Shown here piece after piece: positions 27,186-37,780 of a DNA stretch of 64,000 nucleotides (positions within the stretch are counted from its first letter, which is position 1; each line of letters begins with the position of its first letter). The stretch covers positions 62,001 through 126,000 of the forward strand of contig JAUHWG010000026.1 in assembly GCA_030424595.1 (NCBI GenBank), written 5' to 3'. The DNA is from Polyangia bacterium (GTDB lineage: Bacteria > Myxococcota_A > Polyangia > Nannocystales > Nannocystaceae). A program made the position numbers and the translations under genes. The notes below the pieces were generated by a model, which had not been told where the DNA came from, searched no databases, and worked only from the letters and a program-made list of their open reading frames with translations.

Positions 27186-27433
27186 CATCGTTTCCTCGTA
27201 GCCCCTTGAGGGGGTTGTCCCGCACCAGTCATTGCCGCGAGCGCTGATGGCCATGCTCCCACACTTCTGCCGACGGGCGCAATCGCGTGTCTCTCGGTCA
27301 GCGCGGCGACTCCTCTCGGCCCGAGTCCGACCTGGAGAGCGGACGTCAGCAGCCCTCGGCGCGAAATCACCCTGCATCCAGGACGCTCCTCTCGCCCTAT
27401 ACTCAGGGGCCCTGGAATCCGGGCCCCTCTACC

Positions 27434-30400
27434 GTGCTCTCCGTCTCGGGATACGACATCGACGGCGTCCTCTATGCCGGGCGTGACGTGATCACCCACC
27501 GCGGTCGGTCTCTCGCCGACGGCAGGTCGGTGCTTCTCCGGTGCCCCCTCAGTGAGCACCCAAGCCGACATGTACTCGCTCGCCTCCGCCGCGAGCTGAC
27601 GATCCTGACGACGCTCGACGGCGATCGCATCAACCGCGCCGTCGAGCTCGTCCCCTGCTCTCGCGGCCTCGCCCTGGTCGTCGAGGATCAGGGCGCCGAC
27701 ACGCTTCGCCAGCACTTCGAGCGCGGGCCGCTCACTCCGGCGAAGTTCATCGAGCTCGCCGTCGGGATCGTCGACGCCGTCGCCGCCCTCCATCGACATG
27801 GCCTCGCCCACCGCAACCTCTCGCCAGAGGCGATCATGGTCTCGGAGGACGGACTGGTCACGCTCACCGACCTCAGCGAAGCCGCTCCCTTCAACAGCGG
27901 TGGAGCGGCCGGCAGCGATCCCGAACGGTCCTTTGAGTACGTCGCGCCCGAGCAGACAGGCCGCCTCAACCGTGCGGTCGATCAGCGCAGCGACTTCTAT
28001 GTGCTCGGCGTGATCTTCTTCCAGCTCCTGACCGGGCGCTTGCCCTTTGTCCAGAAGAACCGCCTCGAGCTCGCCCACGCCCACATCACCGACCAGCCTC
28101 CGCGACCCAGCTCCTTGACGGCGGCGACCCCCGCTTGTCTCGACGCGATCGTCCTCAAGCTCCTCGCGAAGATCGCCGATGAGCGCTATCAGAGCGCCGC
28201 GGGCCTTCGCCACGATCTCGACCGCTGCCGCGAGCTCATCGCTGGCGACCAGACATCCGCGACCTTCCAGCTCGGCGCTGTGGACCCCGCCCCACGGCTC
28301 TCCTTCGCGGACCGGCTCTACGGCTCAGAGGGCTTGGTCCACGAATTCCTCGCGGCCTTCGAGCGCGCGAGCAAGGGCTCACGGGAGCTGGTCCTGATCG
28401 CTGGCGCGCCGGGATCAGGCAAGTCGCATCACCTCAGCGATATTCGGCACAATCATCTGCCGAAGCGAGGTCAGGTCCTAGCTGGCCGATGTCAGCCCCG
28501 CTCGAGCGTCCCCTACGGACCCCTACTCACCGCTGTCCGCGCCCGGTTGCAGGTGATCCTCGAGGCCGAGGAGGCCGAGCTCAGCATCTGGCGAATGCAG
28601 ATCGAAGCTGCGATCGGCGAGGGTGCAGCCCTCCTCGGCGGCTTCATCCCAGAGATCGGACAGCTCCTCGACGAGGTCGGCTCCTCTGCGTCTACGCCCG
28701 CGACCGAAGATGAGGATCGCCAGCGGTTTCAGTCGCTCTTCGATGCTCTCCTGCGGGCGATCGCCACGGCCCAGCCGCCCTTTGTGGTCGTCCTCGACGA
28801 TCTCCACCGGATCGACCCGTCCAGCGCAGGCGCGCTCATCCGCCTCTTTGAAGATCCCCGCGGTCACGCCATCCTCGTCATTGCGACCTACTGCACCGAT
28901 AGCCCGGGCTCGGCACACCTCGTCCGCGAGCTTGCGAGCACGATCTCTGAACACGGCGCGACCGTGACGGAGCAAGCGCTCGCCCCCCTCAGCGGCGGCG
29001 ACACAGTCGCGCTCCTACGCGATAGCTTGACGCCGACGGAGAGCTCACTTCGCACGCTAGCCGACCATGTCCTAGGCGGAAGCGGCGGAAACCCCCACCG
29101 AACCCGGCTCCTCCTCGAGACCCTGCACCGCCGAGGGTCGATTCGCTACGAGACGGCCAGCCACCGGTGGAATTGGTCGGTCGACGGCGAACACCCCGAA
29201 TATGATCTCCTCGCGCACCTCGGAGCGCAGCTCGCCGACGCCCCTGCACCGACGAAGGAGGCGCTGGCTTCGGCGGCCTGCATCGGCCTCCACTTCGACC
29301 TCTCGCTCCTCCGCGACCTCGTCGGAGTCAACGCGGGTCCGCTCGCCCTCGCGCTGAAGCCGGCCCTCGAGCGCGGGCTCATCTGCTCGATAGGCGAACC
29401 CGACTCGAGCACCATCACCTACACGTTCACGCATCCGAGCTTGCTCGAGCCTGCGCTGGCGAACCTCGACGTCGACGCGCGCAAGGACTGCCAACGGCGT
29501 CTTGGGAGGATCCTGCTCGACCGAGGAGCGGCGAGCGACGAGCGTATCTTCGACGCCGCCGAGCAGCTCTCGCTCGGCCTTCGCGACAGCGCTGGCTGGG
29601 CCGAGCGGAGCGAGTGTGCCCGGATCTGCCACGAGGCCGGCACGCGAGCGATGATCTCAGGCGGATATGCGACCGCTGCGACGTTCCTCGAGCGAGGCAT
29701 CGACCTGATGCCGGCCGTCGCCTGGCAGGACGAACACCGGCTCATGCTCGGCCTCTTCACGGGGCTCGCCGACGCGCGCCTCTTCCTCGGCGACTCTGCG
29801 GGCGCGAGCACCCTCTTCGACCAAGCCCTCAGCGAGATGCGCTCCTCGCTCGGCCGCGCCGAGCTCCTCGCGTTCAAGATCAGCCGTGAGATCGGCCTGC
29901 GGCGCTTCTCCGACGCGCTCACCACGGGTCGCGCAGGCCTCAAGCTCCTCGGCGTAAAGCTCCCCGCGGCGAGCTCTCGCACGTCGCTCGCCCTCGAGTT
30001 GACCCGTCTTCGCTGGCAGCTGCGCAAGCGCTCGATCCGCTGCGTGCTCGACACGCCAGAGTCTCTCGACCGACGCACCTACGTCATACACAACCTCCTG
30101 ATGTATATGGCGCCGGCCGCCGTCTTCACGGACTTCAAGCTCGCCGCGCTGATCTTCCTCCGCCTGACGAACCTGACCCTTGAGACTGGGCGTACGGAGT
30201 TCTCCGCCTTCGGAGTGGCGGGGTACGGCCTCTTCCTGGCGACGATACAGGCCGACTACAGCGGCGCAGCCGAGGCGAGTGAGGTCGCGGATGCCCTCCT
30301 CTCCCTGCTCCCAAGCCCGACGACCGAGCCCAGGGTTGATCTCATCACCGGTCTCTTCGTCCAGCCGTGGAGCGGCGCGGTGCATGACGCCAAAGGTCGT

Positions 30401-32578
30401 CTGGAGCGCGGGCACGACGGTGCGCTGCGACGAGGCGATCTCGCCTACGCCTGCTTCGCCGGCAGCCAAGTGGCGCCGATGTCCTTCTTCGCCGGCGACA
30501 ACCTCAGCCGCGTCGAGGACCAAGCGGCGACCTACGCGGCCTTCCTCCGCCACTCAGGCGCCGCCGAGGGGCACCACTTCGTCGCCGCGCTCGAGCGCCT
30601 GTGTCATCACCTCCGCGCCCTCGACGATGCGCCGCTCGACGCGAGCGCCGCCAGGCCCCCCAAGGACCGCGACGGCCGTGCCGGTCAGAGCATGGGAGGC
30701 CTCTACATCCCGCTCTACTACGGGATCTGCCTCTACCACGCGGGGGATCACGGCGAGGCCCAGATCCACTTCGACGCCGCAGCCCAAGACCCGACCCCCC
30801 TCGTCGAGCTCGTGACCCGCGTCGACCTCGACTTCTTCTCGGCGCTCAACCTCGCGGAGCTGGCGATGCAGGCCAGCCCCGGCGAGCGCCGCCGCATCAT
30901 GGGGCGGATCGCAGAGCACCACGAGCGCCTCCTCCGCTTTGCCGCCCTCTCTCGGCCGAGCTTCGGCGCACGCGCTGAGATCGTCTCCGGGGCTCGGGCC
31001 TGGATTGAGGGGCGGACTCACGAGGCCCTCCCCCACCTCAACGCCGCGATTAGCCTCGCGTCTGAGGCTGGCGACTCACACCGGGAAGCCCTCGCCGCCG
31101 AGCTCGCGGCCCGCGTAGCGATCGCCACCGAGACCACCTTTCTCCTCGATCACTACCTCGCTCTGGCCTTCGACGCCTACCAGCGCTACGGCGCGATCGC
31201 CAAGCTCAGCGCCCTGCGGGCCAGCTACGGCGAGCGCAGGCCGGCGAACGAACCGCGCAGCCGAGCCCCGACGGAGACCTCAACCTTGGTCCCCATCGAC
31301 GGCGGCACCGGCAAGTCGCTCGACGTCGGCACTGTCATCAAGGCGACTCAGGCCCTCTCCGGCGAGATCGTCCTCGATCGCCTCCTCGACACGCTCATCC
31401 AGGTCGTCATGGAGAACGCCGGGGCGCGACGTTGCTTCCTGGTGCTCGTCCACGAGGGGCGGCTCCTGATCGAGGCGGAGGGGTCGGTCGACAGCTCAGA
31501 GATCGAGGTGCTCCGCTCGACGCCGATCGAGAAGCACGACGATCTTCCCCACTCGATCCTCAAGTACGTCATCCGCTCAGGCTCGAGCGTCGTCCTCGAG
31601 GACGCAGGTCAGCGCGGCGCCTTCACCAAGGATCACTACGTCCGTCGCGAGGCGCTGAAGTCGGTGCTCTGCATGCCGATCATTCACCATAACAAGGTGA
31701 TGGGCGCCCTCTACCTCGAGAACAACCTGGCGACCGAGGTCTTCACCGGTGACCGCCTCGAGCTGCTCAACCAGCTCGCGGCGCAGCTCGCGATCTCTGT
31801 CGACAACGCTCGCCTCTACGAGTCCCTCGATCAGGCCCGCGAGAACGCGGTCAACGCGGACCAGGCGAAGACCCGCTTCCTCATGAACATGAGCCATGAG
31901 CTGAGGACGCCGCTCAACGCGATCATCGGCTACACCGAGCTCATCGAGGAGGACCTGATGGACGGGGTCTCGGACGGCTTCGTCGACGACATCGGCAGCA
32001 TCCAGACCGCGGCGCTACGCCTAGAGCGGACCCTCGAGAGCGCCCTGGAGCTGTCGCGGATCGAGGCCGGAACCTTCACCATCGAGCTCGAGGATGTCGA
32101 CGTCAACGAGCTGATCCGCGACATCCTCCGCGAGCTCGCGCCGGTCGTCTCGGAGCGCAACAACCAGCTCAACCTAGAGATCGACGAGGTCGGCCTGGTC
32201 ATCAGCGATCGTCTCCGTCTGCGCTACTGCCTGCGCAGCGTCCTCGACAACGCGATCCGCTTCACCGAGGGCGGCTCTGTCAGCCTCAAGGTCCAGGTCC
32301 TCGGCGAGGGGTACCTGTCGCGCCTCGGGATCGTCGTCAGCGACAGTGGGATCGGGATCCCGCCCGAGCACATGCAACGGGTCTTCGCCGCGTTCACCCA
32401 GGCGGACGACTCGACGACCCGCAGCTACGAGGGTTCAGGCGTCTCGCTGGCGGTGACGAGGCATATCTGCGATGCGCTCGGCGGGTCGATCACCGCCGAG
32501 TCGACCGTCGGCGTCGGCTCGGTCTTTAGGATCGACCTGCCGATCCGACGCCCGTCAGCGCAGACTCGGGCTAGCTAG
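27434..32578 (+). CDS. pseudokinase/AAA ATPase/GAF/histidine kinase
   Basis: GTG at 27434 is preferred, giving 1,714 residues. An earlier open stretch from 27287 has no coding character, and TATACT at 27398-27403 would place transcription just ahead of GTG. Residues 1-275 are a Ser/Thr kinase-like domain whose key residues are altered: HRNLSPEAIMV for HRDxKPxN and TLTDLSEA for DFG. An AAA/NTPase domain follows (LIAGAPGSGKSHH at about 319; VVVLDDLHRID at about 449), then a helical repeat region, a GAF domain (about 1297-1460), HisKA with NMSHELRTPLN at about 1485, and HATPase_c. The ATPase G2 box reads EGSGVSLAV instead of GGTGLGLAI. There are no membrane segments. The architecture matches the 'trifunctional' kinase/ATP-binding/sensor kinase family. 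The partner regulator is not adjacent. Confidence 0.88.
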   Translation: MLSVSGYDIDGVLYAGRDVITHRGRSLADGRSVLLRCPLSEHPSRHVLARLRRELTILTTLDGDRINRAVELVPCSRGLALVVEDQGADTLRQHFERGPLTPAKFIELAVGIVDAVAALHRHGLAHRNLSPEAIMVSEDGLVTLTDLSEAAPFNSGGAAGSDPERSFEYVAPEQTGRLNRAVDQRSDFYVLGVIFFQLLTGRLPFVQKNRLELAHAHITDQPPRPSSLTAATPACLDAIVLKLLAKIADERYQSAAGLRHDLDRCRELIAGDQTSATFQLGAVDPAPRLSFADRLYGSEGLVHEFLAAFERASKGSRELVLIAGAPGSGKSHHLSDIRHNHLPKRGQVLAGRCQPRSSVPYGPLLTAVRARLQVILEAEEAELSIWRMQIEAAIGEGAALLGGFIPEIGQLLDEVGSSASTPATEDEDRQRFQSLFDALLRAIATAQPPFVVVLDDLHRIDPSSAGALIRLFEDPRGHAILVIATYCTDSPGSAHLVRELASTISEHGATVTEQALAPLSGGDTVALLRDSLTPTESSLRTLADHVLGGSGGNPHRTRLLLETLHRRGSIRYETASHRWNWSVDGEHPEYDLLAHLGAQLADAPAPTKEALASAACIGLHFDLSLLRDLVGVNAGPLALALKPALERGLICSIGEPDSSTITYTFTHPSLLEPALANLDVDARKDCQRRLGRILLDRGAASDERIFDAAEQLSLGLRDSAGWAERSECARICHEAGTRAMISGGYATAATFLERGIDLMPAVAWQDEHRLMLGLFTGLADARLFLGDSAGASTLFDQALSEMRSSLGRAELLAFKISREIGLRRFSDALTTGRAGLKLLGVKLPAASSRTSLALELTRLRWQLRKRSIRCVLDTPESLDRRTYVIHNLLMYMAPAAVFTDFKLAALIFLRLTNLTLETGRTEFSAFGVAGYGLFLATIQADYSGAAEASEVADALLSLLPSPTTEPRVDLITGLFVQPWSGAVHDAKGRLERGHDGALRRGDLAYACFAGSQVAPMSFFAGDNLSRVEDQAATYAAFLRHSGAAEGHHFVAALERLCHHLRALDDAPLDASAARPPKDRDGRAGQSMGGLYIPLYYGICLYHAGDHGEAQIHFDAAAQDPTPLVELVTRVDLDFFSALNLAELAMQASPGERRRIMGRIAEHHERLLRFAALSRPSFGARAEIVSGARAWIEGRTHEALPHLNAAISLASEAGDSHREALAAELAARVAIATETTFLLDHYLALAFDAYQRYGAIAKLSALRASYGERRPANEPRSRAPTETSTLVPIDGGTGKSLDVGTVIKATQALSGEIVLDRLLDTLIQVVMENAGARRCFLVLVHEGRLLIEAEGSVDSSEIEVLRSTPIEKHDDLPHSILKYVIRSGSSVVLEDAGQRGAFTKDHYVRREALKSVLCMPIIHHNKVMGALYLENNLATEVFTGDRLELLNQLAAQLAISVDNARLYESLDQARENAVNADQAKTRFLMNMSHELRTPLNAIIGYTELIEEDLMDGVSDGFVDDIGSIQTAALRLERTLESALELSRIEAGTFTIELEDVDVNELIRDILRELAPVVSERNNQLNLEIDEVGLVISDRLRLRYCLRSVLDNAIRFTEGGSVSLKVQVLGEGYLSRLGIVVSDSGIGIPPEHMQRVFAAFTQADDSTTRSYEGSGVSLAVTRHICDALGGSITAESTVGVGSVFRIDLPIRRPSAQTRAS

Positions 32579-32769
32579 GGGCCCGAGCTTCAGCCAGGCC
32601 CTTCGGCGTGCCGCCCGTTACGTCCAAGTCTACGACCGTTCTCTTCGTAAGCTTCTGCTCCGCCGCCTGTGTATGCAGCCCCATGCGCTTCACCCTCGGC
32701 GAACGCCGGCTTGCCTGCGCCCTCGCGATCGGGCATATCGACGGCTCGACAAGGCCAAGGAGGCGCACG

Positions 32770-33111
32770 ATGAAGACTATCGACTGGTACTATCACCGCA
32801 AGAGTTGAACGTCCTGCAAACGATCGCAGGAGTTTCTTGCGAACAACGGCGCGGCGATCGCTGAGACGACAATCGCCAACAAGATCCGCTTTGAGGGCGA
32901 GGCCGCCCTCGAGATCGCGCGTCAGACCAAGCGTGTCTGGGTCGCGAAGGGCAAGAAGATCACCAAGCTCGACGTCGCTGAGAGCGCCGATGAGGAGCTT
33001 CTCCGGGTCATCCTCGGGCCGAGCGGCAAGCTCCGTGCGCCGGTGCTCCGCGCGGGTGACCTGCTCTTGGTCGGCTTCAACGCCGATCTCTACAGCGAAG
33101 CGCTCACCTGA
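32770..33111 (+). CDS. ArsC-family selenoprotein (in-frame TGA read as Sec)
   Basis: ATG at 32770 is preceded by a perfect AAGGAGG (32757-32763) with six-base spacing. The frame reads MKTIDWYYHRKS, TGA at 32806-32808, then TSCKRSQEFLANNGAAI and on to a normal TGA at 33109-33111, 113 codons in all. The TGA falls at the first position of the C-x-x-C site of ArsC/Spx-like thioredoxin folds, so the product would carry U-T-S-C at 13-16. Downstream features also fit: VWVAKGKKITKLDV, then LLRVILGPSGKLRAPVLRAG with the conserved Arg-Ala-Pro cis-proline loop. It is probably a cytoplasmic redox enzyme; arsenate reduction is not implied. Sec insertion needs selA, selB and selC, none of which lie in the window. 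The alternative is a broken gene, but codon use stays clean after the TGA. Confidence 0.85.
32806..32841 (+). promoter_or_regulatory. candidate bacterial SECIS element
   Basis: Just after the TGA, CGCAGG (32825-32830) pairs with CTTGCG (32836-32841) around the loop AGTTT. The second loop base is G and the loop starts 22 nt past the TGA. This fits the bacterial SECIS rule as I recall it: a short stem, a G within the first two loop bases, and a distance of about 16-37 nt. A competing stem, TCCTGC (32812-32817) with GCAGGA (32826-32831), starts closer to the TGA. Confidence 0.6.
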
Positions 33112-33535
33112 ACGACCAGGCCTGAGCGAACCCGCGGCCGTCGCACGGGACCCGCCCTCGCAAGACTCCGCGCGTCCCAGCGCGAGCCTTGACGGCGTCC
33201 GGTCGGCGGTCGCGGGTGTGTGCGCGACCACGACCGGAGGCCACCGCCGGTGGCTTCGACGGACGAGATGGAGACGAGCCTTCTCCGCGCCGCGGCCCGA
33301 TAGGACGCCCGGCCCCCTCGCCCATGTCGTGCCTCCGCGAGCCCGTGACGGTCGCACGCGGTCGCACTGTGTCGAGCTAGCGCAGGCTCGGCCTATGCTT
33401 CTGGCTCGGGCGATCTTCGCGACCGAGAAGATGAAGTACACAAGACCCGCCCTGGTGTTGGAGGTCGCTGATGATCCGGGGGTCAGCTTCGCGCCTTGAC
33501 CGCACTCTCAGCCTGGCCGATCGTCAGTGTCTACG
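33112..33535. other. intergenic region without a recognised gene
   Basis: This is 420 bp between the selenoprotein stop and the next ATG. It is GC-rich with small palindromes such as GCCACCGCCGGTGGC near 33240. Open frames on both strands lack protein-like content. A 22-codon frame at 33431-33499 (MKYTRPALVLEVADDPG) is too short to support. Confidence 0.4.
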
Positions 33536-35869
33536 ATGGCGGATGAGGACCAGGCGGACGGACGCGGCCAAACCCAAGGCTCAGCCGAGACCCCGGACCC
33601 AGCCGAGACCCGAACGCTCGGCGCGACCGATCCGATCGCCGAAGACGAAGACGTTCCGACCAGCCGGTGGACCCGCACGATCGATCGGGTCACGTATGTC
33701 TTCCTCCACCGGGGGAGCGCGCTCCTCTACCAGCTGACGATCGCGATCACGCTCGGCACGCTCCTCGGGACCGTGATCGCGCTGGTGCTCTTCGGCGAGA
33801 AGAACCTCGAGATCTTGATCGGTGGTGTCGGCGGGATCGCCGTGGTCTCAGCGCTCCTGCGCTGGGTGGTCGCCTCGGTCCCCGAGCTCGACGATCACAG
33901 CCGGGTGCTGTCGGCGAAGCGGCGGGTCTTCATCCTCACCGTCCTCGCCGCAGCGATCGCGTTCTACGGCCACTATTGGACGATTCGCAGCGGTTTCCCG
34001 CTGATCCCGCTGGGTCAAGACACCGAGCTCTATCGCCGGATCAACCGCCTCGAAGACCAGGTCAAGCAGGTCGAGGTCGACCTCGGGACCGTGCCGATGC
34101 ACCGGCATAGCCTGACGACGGCGCCGCAGGTCCGGAGCTGGCGGCGGATCCCGGTCAAGCCCGGCAAGCCCTACAACCTCCGCCTCGAGACCGGCGACAC
34201 CAGCCGCGATGTGTGGGTAGAGCTGGTCGTCACCGACGAGAAGGGCGACATCCTCGGCGCACGTCGTGCCCTGAGCAGCCGTGATCTCCGGCTCACGGTC
34301 CTCACCGAGGATCACTGGTCGATCGGCGTCGGTGTTCGCTGGTGGCCCCGCGGCACGGGTCCCCTCGACATGATCGACGACGACCCGCCCAAGGCCCCCC
34401 TCGAACTCCAGCTCACGGCGACGGAGGCCCAGGCCGCTCGGATCTCGAGCGCCTGGACCGGAGAGTTCGCCGACCTCAGCTTCGACGGCAGGGAGCTCCG
34501 CGCCAGCGGTGATTCGAGCGAGAGCAGCAGCGACACGATGCGCAGCCGCTGCGGCGGTGATGGGAGCAACGAGCTGCTCTATCGCCTGGATCTATCGCAG
34601 GCCACCTCCGGCGGGTGGTTGGCGATCGCCGCCCAGTCCGAGCTGACGATGGCGACGATCGTCGGGCTCTACGCGGAGGACGGAAAGAGCCTAGACGATG
34701 AGGGGATCGAGACCCTCACGCTGCGCGAGCTCGCCTGTGATGGGTCCGCTTTCCTCTTCGAGGGCAACCCGGACAGCCTCCGCCGCGACAACCTGACGTC
34801 TACGCTGCACGTCGCGGTTCCTCCAGGTATCTACTACCTCGCGATCGACGGTCTGCCGGCGCAGCGTCGTCGCGAGCGACCGCTCGCCCTCCCCTTCACC
34901 CTGCGCGGCACCTTCACCCCCTTCGACGCGACGAGCACGCTGGAGATCGACAGCGACGCGCCCTCGTCGACCCACCTCGTCGATCTCCTCCACGCCCGCT
35001 CGGTCGAGCGCTGCGAGCGGCGTGACATCAACTATGTCGACCTGCCGGTGCGGATCGACGGCGAGCAGAAGCTCGTCACCGCGAGCCTCAGCGCCGAAGG
35101 CTCCCACGTCGCGAGCCGCCTCGTGTGGTTGCCCGATCAGCCCGTCGACCCCGGCTGCGACCTCTACGAGAGCGCCGAGAGCCGGCCCTTTGTCACCGTC
35201 GGCGCCGAGGAGCCGAAGACGATCCGCCTCTTTCGCCCCGCGCCCAACCGCCAGCCGGCGATCGAGTCGCTCTCGTTCCGCGTCGACACCCCCGCCACCG
35301 AGGCGCTGAAAGAGGCCTGCAAGAACGCCCCCGTGCTCGCCAAGTCGAACAGCGGCTCCCTCTACGGTCGGACAGGCTCCGGGACAAACCCGATCATCGG
35401 CCTCGACAACGAGCCCCTCGTGCAAAAGGACGAGCCTCAGTCGCAGGTCTTCGCCGTCGCCGCCTGCGCTGCCAACGCCCGTTGGCAGCCGCCCAGGAGC
35501 GACGACCCTTCGAAGCCGATGCGATCGATAAACCCCCTCGCCTACGCCCCCGGCGAGGACACCCCGGAGTCGATCTGGACCCTGTCGCTGAAGGAGGCCT
35601 CGACGATCGACCTCATGGTCACGTCTTCGGCCCAGGGGCAGCTCCTCTACACGTCGATCATCCGCGAGTGCCAGACCATCCCCCAGGTCATCGCCTGCGA
35701 ACAGGCACGCGGACCGCAACAGGTCACCGCCCACGTCCGCCTCCCCGCGGGGACCTATCAGATCATCGCTGACGGCCCCGGCCCGCACTTCTTGGCGATG
35801 GACATCGACCCTGTGAAGAGCAGCCCCGGCGATCCGCTCGATCCGCGCAACGACCCGCTCGGCGACTAG
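33536..35869 (+). CDS. membrane-anchored protein of unknown function
   Basis: From ATG at 33536 (the preceding GTG at 33527 is possible) the 777-residue product has an acidic cytoplasmic head. Three hydrophobic segments follow at about 60-80, 87-105 and 125-145 (LLYQLTIAITLGTLLGTVIA, EILIGGVGGIAVVSALLRWV, VFILTVLAAAIAFYGHYWTI). Then comes a coiled-coil-like stretch (YRRINRLEDQVKQVEVDLG) and about 600 residues of beta-rich sequence. The latter contains repeated 'PAGTYQIIADGP' and 'PPGIYYLAIDGL' segments, the pattern of pre-peptidase C-terminal-like sandwiches. No catalytic site is recognised. It is presumably exported beyond the inner membrane. The TAG stop lies at the left end of a family-2 repeat. 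Confidence 0.75.
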   Translation: MADEDQADGRGQTQGSAETPDPAETRTLGATDPIAEDEDVPTSRWTRTIDRVTYVFLHRGSALLYQLTIAITLGTLLGTVIALVLFGEKNLEILIGGVGGIAVVSALLRWVVASVPELDDHSRVLSAKRRVFILTVLAAAIAFYGHYWTIRSGFPLIPLGQDTELYRRINRLEDQVKQVEVDLGTVPMHRHSLTTAPQVRSWRRIPVKPGKPYNLRLETGDTSRDVWVELVVTDEKGDILGARRALSSRDLRLTVLTEDHWSIGVGVRWWPRGTGPLDMIDDDPPKAPLELQLTATEAQAARISSAWTGEFADLSFDGRELRASGDSSESSSDTMRSRCGGDGSNELLYRLDLSQATSGGWLAIAAQSELTMATIVGLYAEDGKSLDDEGIETLTLRELACDGSAFLFEGNPDSLRRDNLTSTLHVAVPPGIYYLAIDGLPAQRRRERPLALPFTLRGTFTPFDATSTLEIDSDAPSSTHLVDLLHARSVERCERRDINYVDLPVRIDGEQKLVTASLSAEGSHVASRLVWLPDQPVDPGCDLYESAESRPFVTVGAEEPKTIRLFRPAPNRQPAIESLSFRVDTPATEALKEACKNAPVLAKSNSGSLYGRTGSGTNPIIGLDNEPLVQKDEPQSQVFAVAACAANARWQPPRSDDPSKPMRSINPLAYAPGEDTPESIWTLSLKEASTIDLMVTSSAQGQLLYTSIIRECQTIPQVIACEQARGPQQVTAHVRLPAGTYQIIADGPGPHFLAMDIDPVKSSPGDPLDPRNDPLGD

Positions 35870-36175: not shown

Positions 36176-37780
36176 ATGTCCCTGCTCAACTGGCCCAACT
36201 TTACTGCTTCCGTGGAACCCCAGACCGAGGGCGCCGACGCTGAGCTCGGAGCGCTCAGTCCTGAGCGCGCCCTCCTGTCCCCCGTATGGATCGCGTCGCT
36301 CGCGATCCTCGGGCTCAACGATCACCTCTTCAAGGGCTCGGGCCTCCTCCCCGATGTGCTCACGGGCAAGCTGAGCGACGTCGCCGGGATGCTGGTCGCT
36401 CCGGCGCTGCTCGCCGCCGTGACCCGCACCAAGAGCCGCCGCGGGCTCTTCCTCTGTCACCTCGCGGTCGGAGCCGTGTTCGCGGCGATCAACCTCTCCG
36501 GCGACGCTGCGGCCGCATGGAGCGCCCTCATGGGCCTCGTCGGCGCGCCCTGGACGATCACCGTAGATCCGACCGACCTCATCGTCCTGCCGGCGCTCTT
36601 CCTCTCCTGGAGGGCGCTCGCCCCGGACATGACGAAGCCTGTCCCAAGAGGCAGGGTTCGCGCCATCGAGGGGACCCTCGCGAGCGTCGGCGTCTGCCTC
36701 TCGGTCGCGACGAGCCAGAGCGAGCCCTGGGAGGGCGAAGAGGGCTGGTGGACCAACCCGATCAACGCCGATGTCTACGTCCAGAACACCTCGGACGTGA
36801 GCACGGTCGTCCGCCTCCGGAGCCCCCGCGCGGGCGTCATGCTCGACTGTTTTGAGATCGCGGCGAACCCCGGCATCCTCTCCGAGGAGATCTTCGGCGA
36901 GGCCGTCTCCTACACCCTGGCGCCCGGCAACGTCGTCGCTGCCCGCGACACCGGCGTCACCCAAGGCCAAGCGTGCTACGCGGTGCTCGTCGAGGGCGAC
37001 ACCTTCCCGCAGACGCTCGTGTTCTGGGAGAACGGCGACATTCCGGTCGAGTGGATCGACGGCGATCGGGCCCTCGAAGGCGGACTTATCCTCGAGTGGG
37101 AGGACGACCACCACACGATCGAGGCGATGAAGCGCCCTGAGCTCATCCAGCCCCTCGCGGACAGCGACGATCCGCCCGCCGGCGCCTGCACCCCGCAGGA
37201 GGACGGCGGACGGCTCGCCTGGACGCAGCCGCAGAGCGGGTCGCGGCGGGTCGCGGCGCTCGACGTCGGCCCCGACGGTTGCATCGCCGTCGACTTCTCC
37301 TCGGGCGAGCCCGACGGTCTCACCGACTGGTACGTCTGCGCACCGCCGGAGCTCTTCCCCTTCGTGGTCGGCGATTGGATCCGCAGCGAGACGATCAACG
37401 AGGCGCTCATCACCCGCCGCGTCATCGGCCCCGACCAGGAGCCGGTCGCGTCCGCGGAGCTCTTCCTGAGCACCGGCAGCGCCCTCCCGCCGCTGATCGA
37501 CACGACCCTCAGCCTCCGCGCTGACTTCGACTGCGGCCTCGCCCCGGACGCGTGCGGCAGCGTCTCTCGCAACGCCAGCCTGACCGCCCAGCGGAGCGAT
37601 CTTCCGGTCGCCTCGATCGCCGTCGGCGAGACCGCGCACCTCGACCTGCCCGGCTCCGACCTGGCCATCCACCTAGTCCACGCCCAGGAGCGGGTCCTGG
37701 TCAACACGGAGTGCTCCGAAGGACCCGCCGCGACCGGCGATGACATCGAGGTGGTCGCGGTCTACACCGAGCCGCAGTAG
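36176..37780 (+). CDS. membrane protein with NDH/GKLSD motif and exported domain
   Basis: ATG at 36176 follows ACGGAGAG. The first 190 residues contain about four hydrophobic helices. They include the block LNDHLFKGSGLLPDVLTGKL then SDVAGMLVAPALLAA, a signature shared by a group of uncharacterised membrane proteins whose consensus is roughly NDHxLK...GKLSDxAG. The remaining 340 residues are soluble and beta-rich, with scattered Cys and acidic residues (WENGDIPVEWIDGDRALEGG, ILEWEDDHHTIEAM), and presumably face outward. TATAGT lies at about 36077-36082 as a possible -10 box, without a clear -35 partner. Function is unknown. Confidence 0.75.
   Translation: MSLLNWPNFTASVEPQTEGADAELGALSPERALLSPVWIASLAILGLNDHLFKGSGLLPDVLTGKLSDVAGMLVAPALLAAVTRTKSRRGLFLCHLAVGAVFAAINLSGDAAAAWSALMGLVGAPWTITVDPTDLIVLPALFLSWRALAPDMTKPVPRGRVRAIEGTLASVGVCLSVATSQSEPWEGEEGWWTNPINADVYVQNTSDVSTVVRLRSPRAGVMLDCFEIAANPGILSEEIFGEAVSYTLAPGNVVAARDTGVTQGQACYAVLVEGDTFPQTLVFWENGDIPVEWIDGDRALEGGLILEWEDDHHTIEAMKRPELIQPLADSDDPPAGACTPQEDGGRLAWTQPQSGSRRVAALDVGPDGCIAVDFSSGEPDGLTDWYVCAPPELFPFVVGDWIRSETINEALITRRVIGPDQEPVASAELFLSTGSALPPLIDTTLSLRADFDCGLAPDACGSVSRNASLTAQRSDLPVASIAVGETAHLDLPGSDLAIHLVHAQERVLVNTECSEGPAATGDDIEVVAVYTEPQ

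Follow-up and report, generated by a model that had tools for sequence, protein, structure and literature searches.

An in-frame UGA in a predicted selenoprotein gene of family NF041106 from a Polyangia genome

A reading frame that follows a ribosome-binding site, meets a TGA after 12 codons and then stays open raises the question of whether this TGA ends translation or encodes selenocysteine (Sec) and, if it encodes Sec, what kind of protein is made. We analysed such a frame in a 64,000-nucleotide stretch of a Polyangia bacterium genome (GCA_030424595.1, contig JAUHWG010000026.1, positions 62,001 to 126,000; hereafter the window). Overall, sequence comparison led us to conclude that the gene at 32770-33111 almost certainly encodes Sec, and we regard it as very likely to be a functional selenoprotein gene with Sec at residue 13 and a product of the Spx/ArsC-type fold.

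Gene anatomy and family membership

The initial annotation had described a ribosome site, an ATG, 12 codons, a TGA and 100 further codons, and direct reading and translation reproduced this anatomy exactly: the ATG at 32770 and 12 codons are followed by a TGA at 32806-32808, after which 100 sense codons lead to the TGA stop at 33109-33111. The TGA-T-S-C site and the downstream RAP loop that it had pointed out were both present in the translation of 32770-33111, as U13-T-S-C16 and R89-A-P91, and ordinary bacterial gene calling stopped the frame opened at 32770 at the TGA at 32806, just as it had stated. The features of the locus, in window coordinates, are the following:

32757..32763, + strand: Shine-Dalgarno sequence AAGGAGG, 6 nt upstream of the ATG (direct reading)
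32770..33111, + strand: predicted selenoprotein gene of family NF041106; 113 aa, Sec as residue 13, TGA stop (translated with TGA as U)
32806..32808, + strand: predicted UGA for selenocysteine, codon 13, in the U-T-S-C site; TGA at 93/99 and Cys at 6/99 homologous sites
32824..32842, + strand: SECIS-like hairpin UCGCAGG-AGUUU-CUUGCGA, 15 nt 3' of the UGA; 7 bp, GU in the apical loop
33034..33042, + strand: codons of R89-A90-P91 (cis-Pro loop), invariant among 44 aligned homologues

The bare pattern of these signals alone is not significant. A Shine-Dalgarno sequence with an ATG, a TGA and at least 95 open codons occurred five times in the GC-rich window, and the pattern was therefore not used as evidence for the gene. 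In the pieces scanned, none of the other four occurrences matched Pfam up to 0.01; they resembled wrong-frame GC-rich translations and, for one of them, the upstream extension of a real regulator, and were rejected as chance-like. The gene was taken as real because of its homology, the conserved position of the TGA, the protein constraint after the TGA and the conserved SECIS hairpin.

With TGA translated as Sec, the product matched the NCBIfam model NF041106 (ArsC_rel_Se_1, 'ArsC family (seleno)protein') with 121.4 bits over profile positions 1-107 of 107, against a curated cut-off of 85 bits, while it was barely over the cut-off of the Pfam ArsC family (PF03960; 26.1 bits vs. 24). NF041106 is a curated NCBI model that was made to catch this selenoprotein family, and the window gene is, judged by its profile match, one more member of it. 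The ArsC-family selenoprotein group that the initial annotation had mentioned does exist: a 2026 inventory of prokaryotic selenoproteins has an 'Arsenate reductase-like protein, NF041106, UxxC' (PMC13188914), an arsenate reductase-like UxxC selenoprotein, apparently of the same family, appears in a 2022 review (PMC9312934), and ArsC-like selenoproteins had been reported in 2006 (PMC1794560). No experimental study of the NF041106 family was found in the open-access literature searched. As the family is already catalogued, the window gene is a sound but ordinary find that gives no new principle; it enlarges by one a selenoprotein family found widely in Myxococcota, Planctomycetota and other phyla.

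Conservation of the UGA, its hairpin and the decoding machinery

Compared to a same-genus relative with an 80% identical protein (L020), the sequence after the TGA had a dN of 0.156 and a dS of 0.60 (dN/dS about 0.26), and the comparison to locus L018 gave a dN of 0.39 and a dS of 1.46. The GC content by codon position after the TGA was 0.64/0.44/0.84, while the stretch 3' of the gene was flat (0.74/0.72/0.69). Judged from these substitution and composition patterns, protein constraint acts on the sequence 3' of the in-frame TGA.

A scan of genome contigs returned more than 500 stretches from relatives in Planctomycetota, Gemmatimonadota, Acidobacteria, Bacteroidales, Cyanobacteria and others. 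The initial annotation had named stops or frameshifts scattered among homologues as evidence against Sec, but Sec or Cys was found at the exact codon: at the equivalents of codon 13, read by motif in several phyla, 93 of 99 homologous sites had U and six had C, these being counts of loci and not of independent events, with some sites from close kin or from one contig that had been reached in two ways (L020 and L032; the window and L019). Within the order, the gene scored over the cut-off in nine of 29 genomes, eight of which had one TGA; selA was present in all nine, and none of the six genomes without selA had an over-cut-off match. Across the phylum, such a match was found in 77 of 379 genomes, each with one in-frame TGA except for genome G008 (Cys). 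This Cys version, the only one of the order (L021 1495-1803; G008:C28:296464-296766), adjoins selA divergently, and G008 retains selA. Another genome of the order, G027, carries a second selA (G027:C436:2938-4092, 525 bits) on a different contig from the family-typical one (405 bits), which is possibly a contamination or a transferred copy.

The genome holding the window (9.5 Mb, 65 contigs) contains all four sel genes expected of a Sec-encoding bacterium (selA, selB, selC and selD), so that the lack of selB or selC, which would have spoken against the proposal of the initial annotation, was not observed. Profile matches over the curated cut-offs placed selA, selB and selD together on contig C5, and one strong tRNA-Sec was detected (77.5 bits; ARAGORN tRNA-SeC, anticodon tca (UCA)). 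The raw sequence confirms Sec decoding by this organism. The selD gene of the same genome (L017 1501-2451; G000:C5:28815-29765) carries a TGA in frame at the position of its active site (GGGUAAK) and is likely Sec-encoding itself.

The hairpin at 32824-32842 is predicted to be a typical bacterial SECIS. Over 30 homologues, picked from the relatives that share the register of the window, 95.7% of the cells were paired and 21 cells were altered on both sides; none of 500 shuffles reached either value, and pairing dropped to 23-61% for structures shifted by 1-3 columns. A second group of relatives had the same hairpin, one base longer, and 79 of 87 distinct rows of the full set formed at least five of the seven pairs in one or the other register. 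Relative to synonymous recoding, the mean z of the hairpin was -1.8 in Sec homologues and above 0 in all six Cys homologues. Since the hairpin is found in Sec homologues and absent in Cys homologues, it goes with the UGA and not with the protein. In the window sequence taken by itself, stability was modest to moderate (z -1.8, 55 of 1000 recodings as low), and free folding favoured a competing hairpin. A search of the window with Rfam returned a single tRNA and no SECIS entry.

A second, distinct ArsC/Spx-like protein was observed in related genomes; its frame has a TGA at the equivalent catalytic site (LYLKSTUTSCRDAR and similar), with a strong hairpin at SECIS distance 3' of the TGA. Its loci are L031 (G028), L141 (G386), L142 (G388), L143 (G355), L144 (G333) and L145 (G067), while L028 has Cys at the place of the TGA. 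As L031 fell far short of the cut-offs of both NF041106 and TIGR01617, these loci may represent a selenoprotein group that has no model yet.

Structure, alternative readings and comparison with known systems

AlphaFold2 on 44 homologues gave a pLDDT of 95, and the closest solved structures were Spx, YffB and ArsC-like proteins, followed by glutaredoxins, with moderate TM-scores (0.5-0.6). Residues W6, H9, R10, C/U13, C16, G61, G83, G86, L88, R89, A90, P91 and G102 were invariant in the 44 homologues; Ala90 thus preceded the cis-Pro in 44/44. The fourth residue after Sec (position 17), an Arg in ArsC, was K, T, G, A, V or Q. Classical ArsC has an Arg just before the cis-Pro (Arg94 of plasmid R773). 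The Gly52 segment of Spx contacts the alpha-CTD of RNA polymerase. Frames within 7 kb of about 98 loci were clustered, and no conserved gene neighbour that might hint at a substrate or partner emerged, the clusters comprising small chance groups besides the gene and its shadow frames. In the window, the gene lies downstream of a 1763-aa protein that combines protein kinase, AAA, GAF, HisKA and HATPase domains (27287-32578) and upstream of two long proteins with no Pfam match (33527-35869, 780 aa; 36176-37780, 534 aa).

An alternative explanation is that the TGA at 32806 is a genuine stop, the locus being either a pseudogene or a Cys gene with a sequencing error, which would agree with ordinary bacterial gene calling. 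Such a stop is difficult to reconcile with the same codon being TGA at 93 of 99 sites in several phyla, with constraint that persists 3' of it, with the Sec machinery in the genome and with a hairpin kept in Sec homologues only. Because the TGA is conserved across species, we consider this explanation refuted and its remaining probability negligible.

For a selenoprotein, the Pfam ArsC fold and the name 'arsenate reductase-like' used in reviews (PMC13188914) would suggest an arsenate reductase. This function is highly improbable, as TIGR00014 (arsC) was not among the matches up to E = 1, Ala90 is invariant where classical ArsC has Arg, the position four residues after Sec is variable instead of Arg, and no ars genes recurred beside the gene. 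The 'ArsC-family' label of the initial annotation thus holds for the fold but not for arsenate reduction. A role as an Spx-like regulator, sensing oxidants by Sec-x-x-Cys and binding the RNA polymerase alpha-CTD, is also very unlikely: Spx chains were the top PDB matches in both the profile and the fold comparison, and U-T-S-C aligns with the C-T-S-C of Spx, but TIGR01617 reached 31.3 bits vs. a cut-off of 75.05, the four-residue segment that precedes Gly52 in Spx is missing, Gly52 is not kept, and Ala replaces the Arg before the cis-Pro. With neither this Arg nor the Spx segment, the protein is neither ArsC nor Spx by those marks.

Our preferred reading is a Sec-containing oxidoreductase. At UGA 32806, SelB with Sec-tRNA(Sec) would bind the hairpin at 32824-32842, and Sec would be inserted at residue 13 by UGA readthrough. 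The 113-residue product would adopt a thioredoxin fold of the Spx/ArsC type, in which the redox pair Sec13-x-x-Cys16 lies beside the R89-A-P91 cis-Pro loop; the Sec selenolate would attack the substrate, and Cys16 would resolve the selenenyl-sulfide or mixed intermediate. By analogy to thioredoxin-fold enzymes, a Sec-x-x-Cys pair beside the cis-Pro loop indicates a putative thiol-disulfide or peroxide chemistry, and we infer that the product is probably a thiol-disulfide or peroxide-reducing oxidoreductase. That the invariant W-x-Y-H-R motif ahead of Sec and the R-A-P loop serve a redox-sensor or oxidoreductase activity new to ArsC, Spx and glutaredoxins appears rather unlikely.

Compared to Spx (PDB 1z3e, 3gfk, 6ghb), the window protein has the same ArsC-type thioredoxin fold and a redox pair in the same place (CTSC vs. 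UTSC), but it is without the Gly52 segment for RNA polymerase contact and without the Arg before the cis-Pro, and it has Sec. The glutaredoxin-type arsenate reductase ArsC (TIGR00014) is alike in fold and in the place of the catalytic residue, whereas the window protein is without the tested catalytic arginines and has its resolving Cys three residues on. With the members of NF041106 it has in common the full-length match over the cut-off, the UxxC site, the W-x-Y-H-R motif and the RAP loop; Sec or Cys stands at the same residue, and there is no difference of substance.
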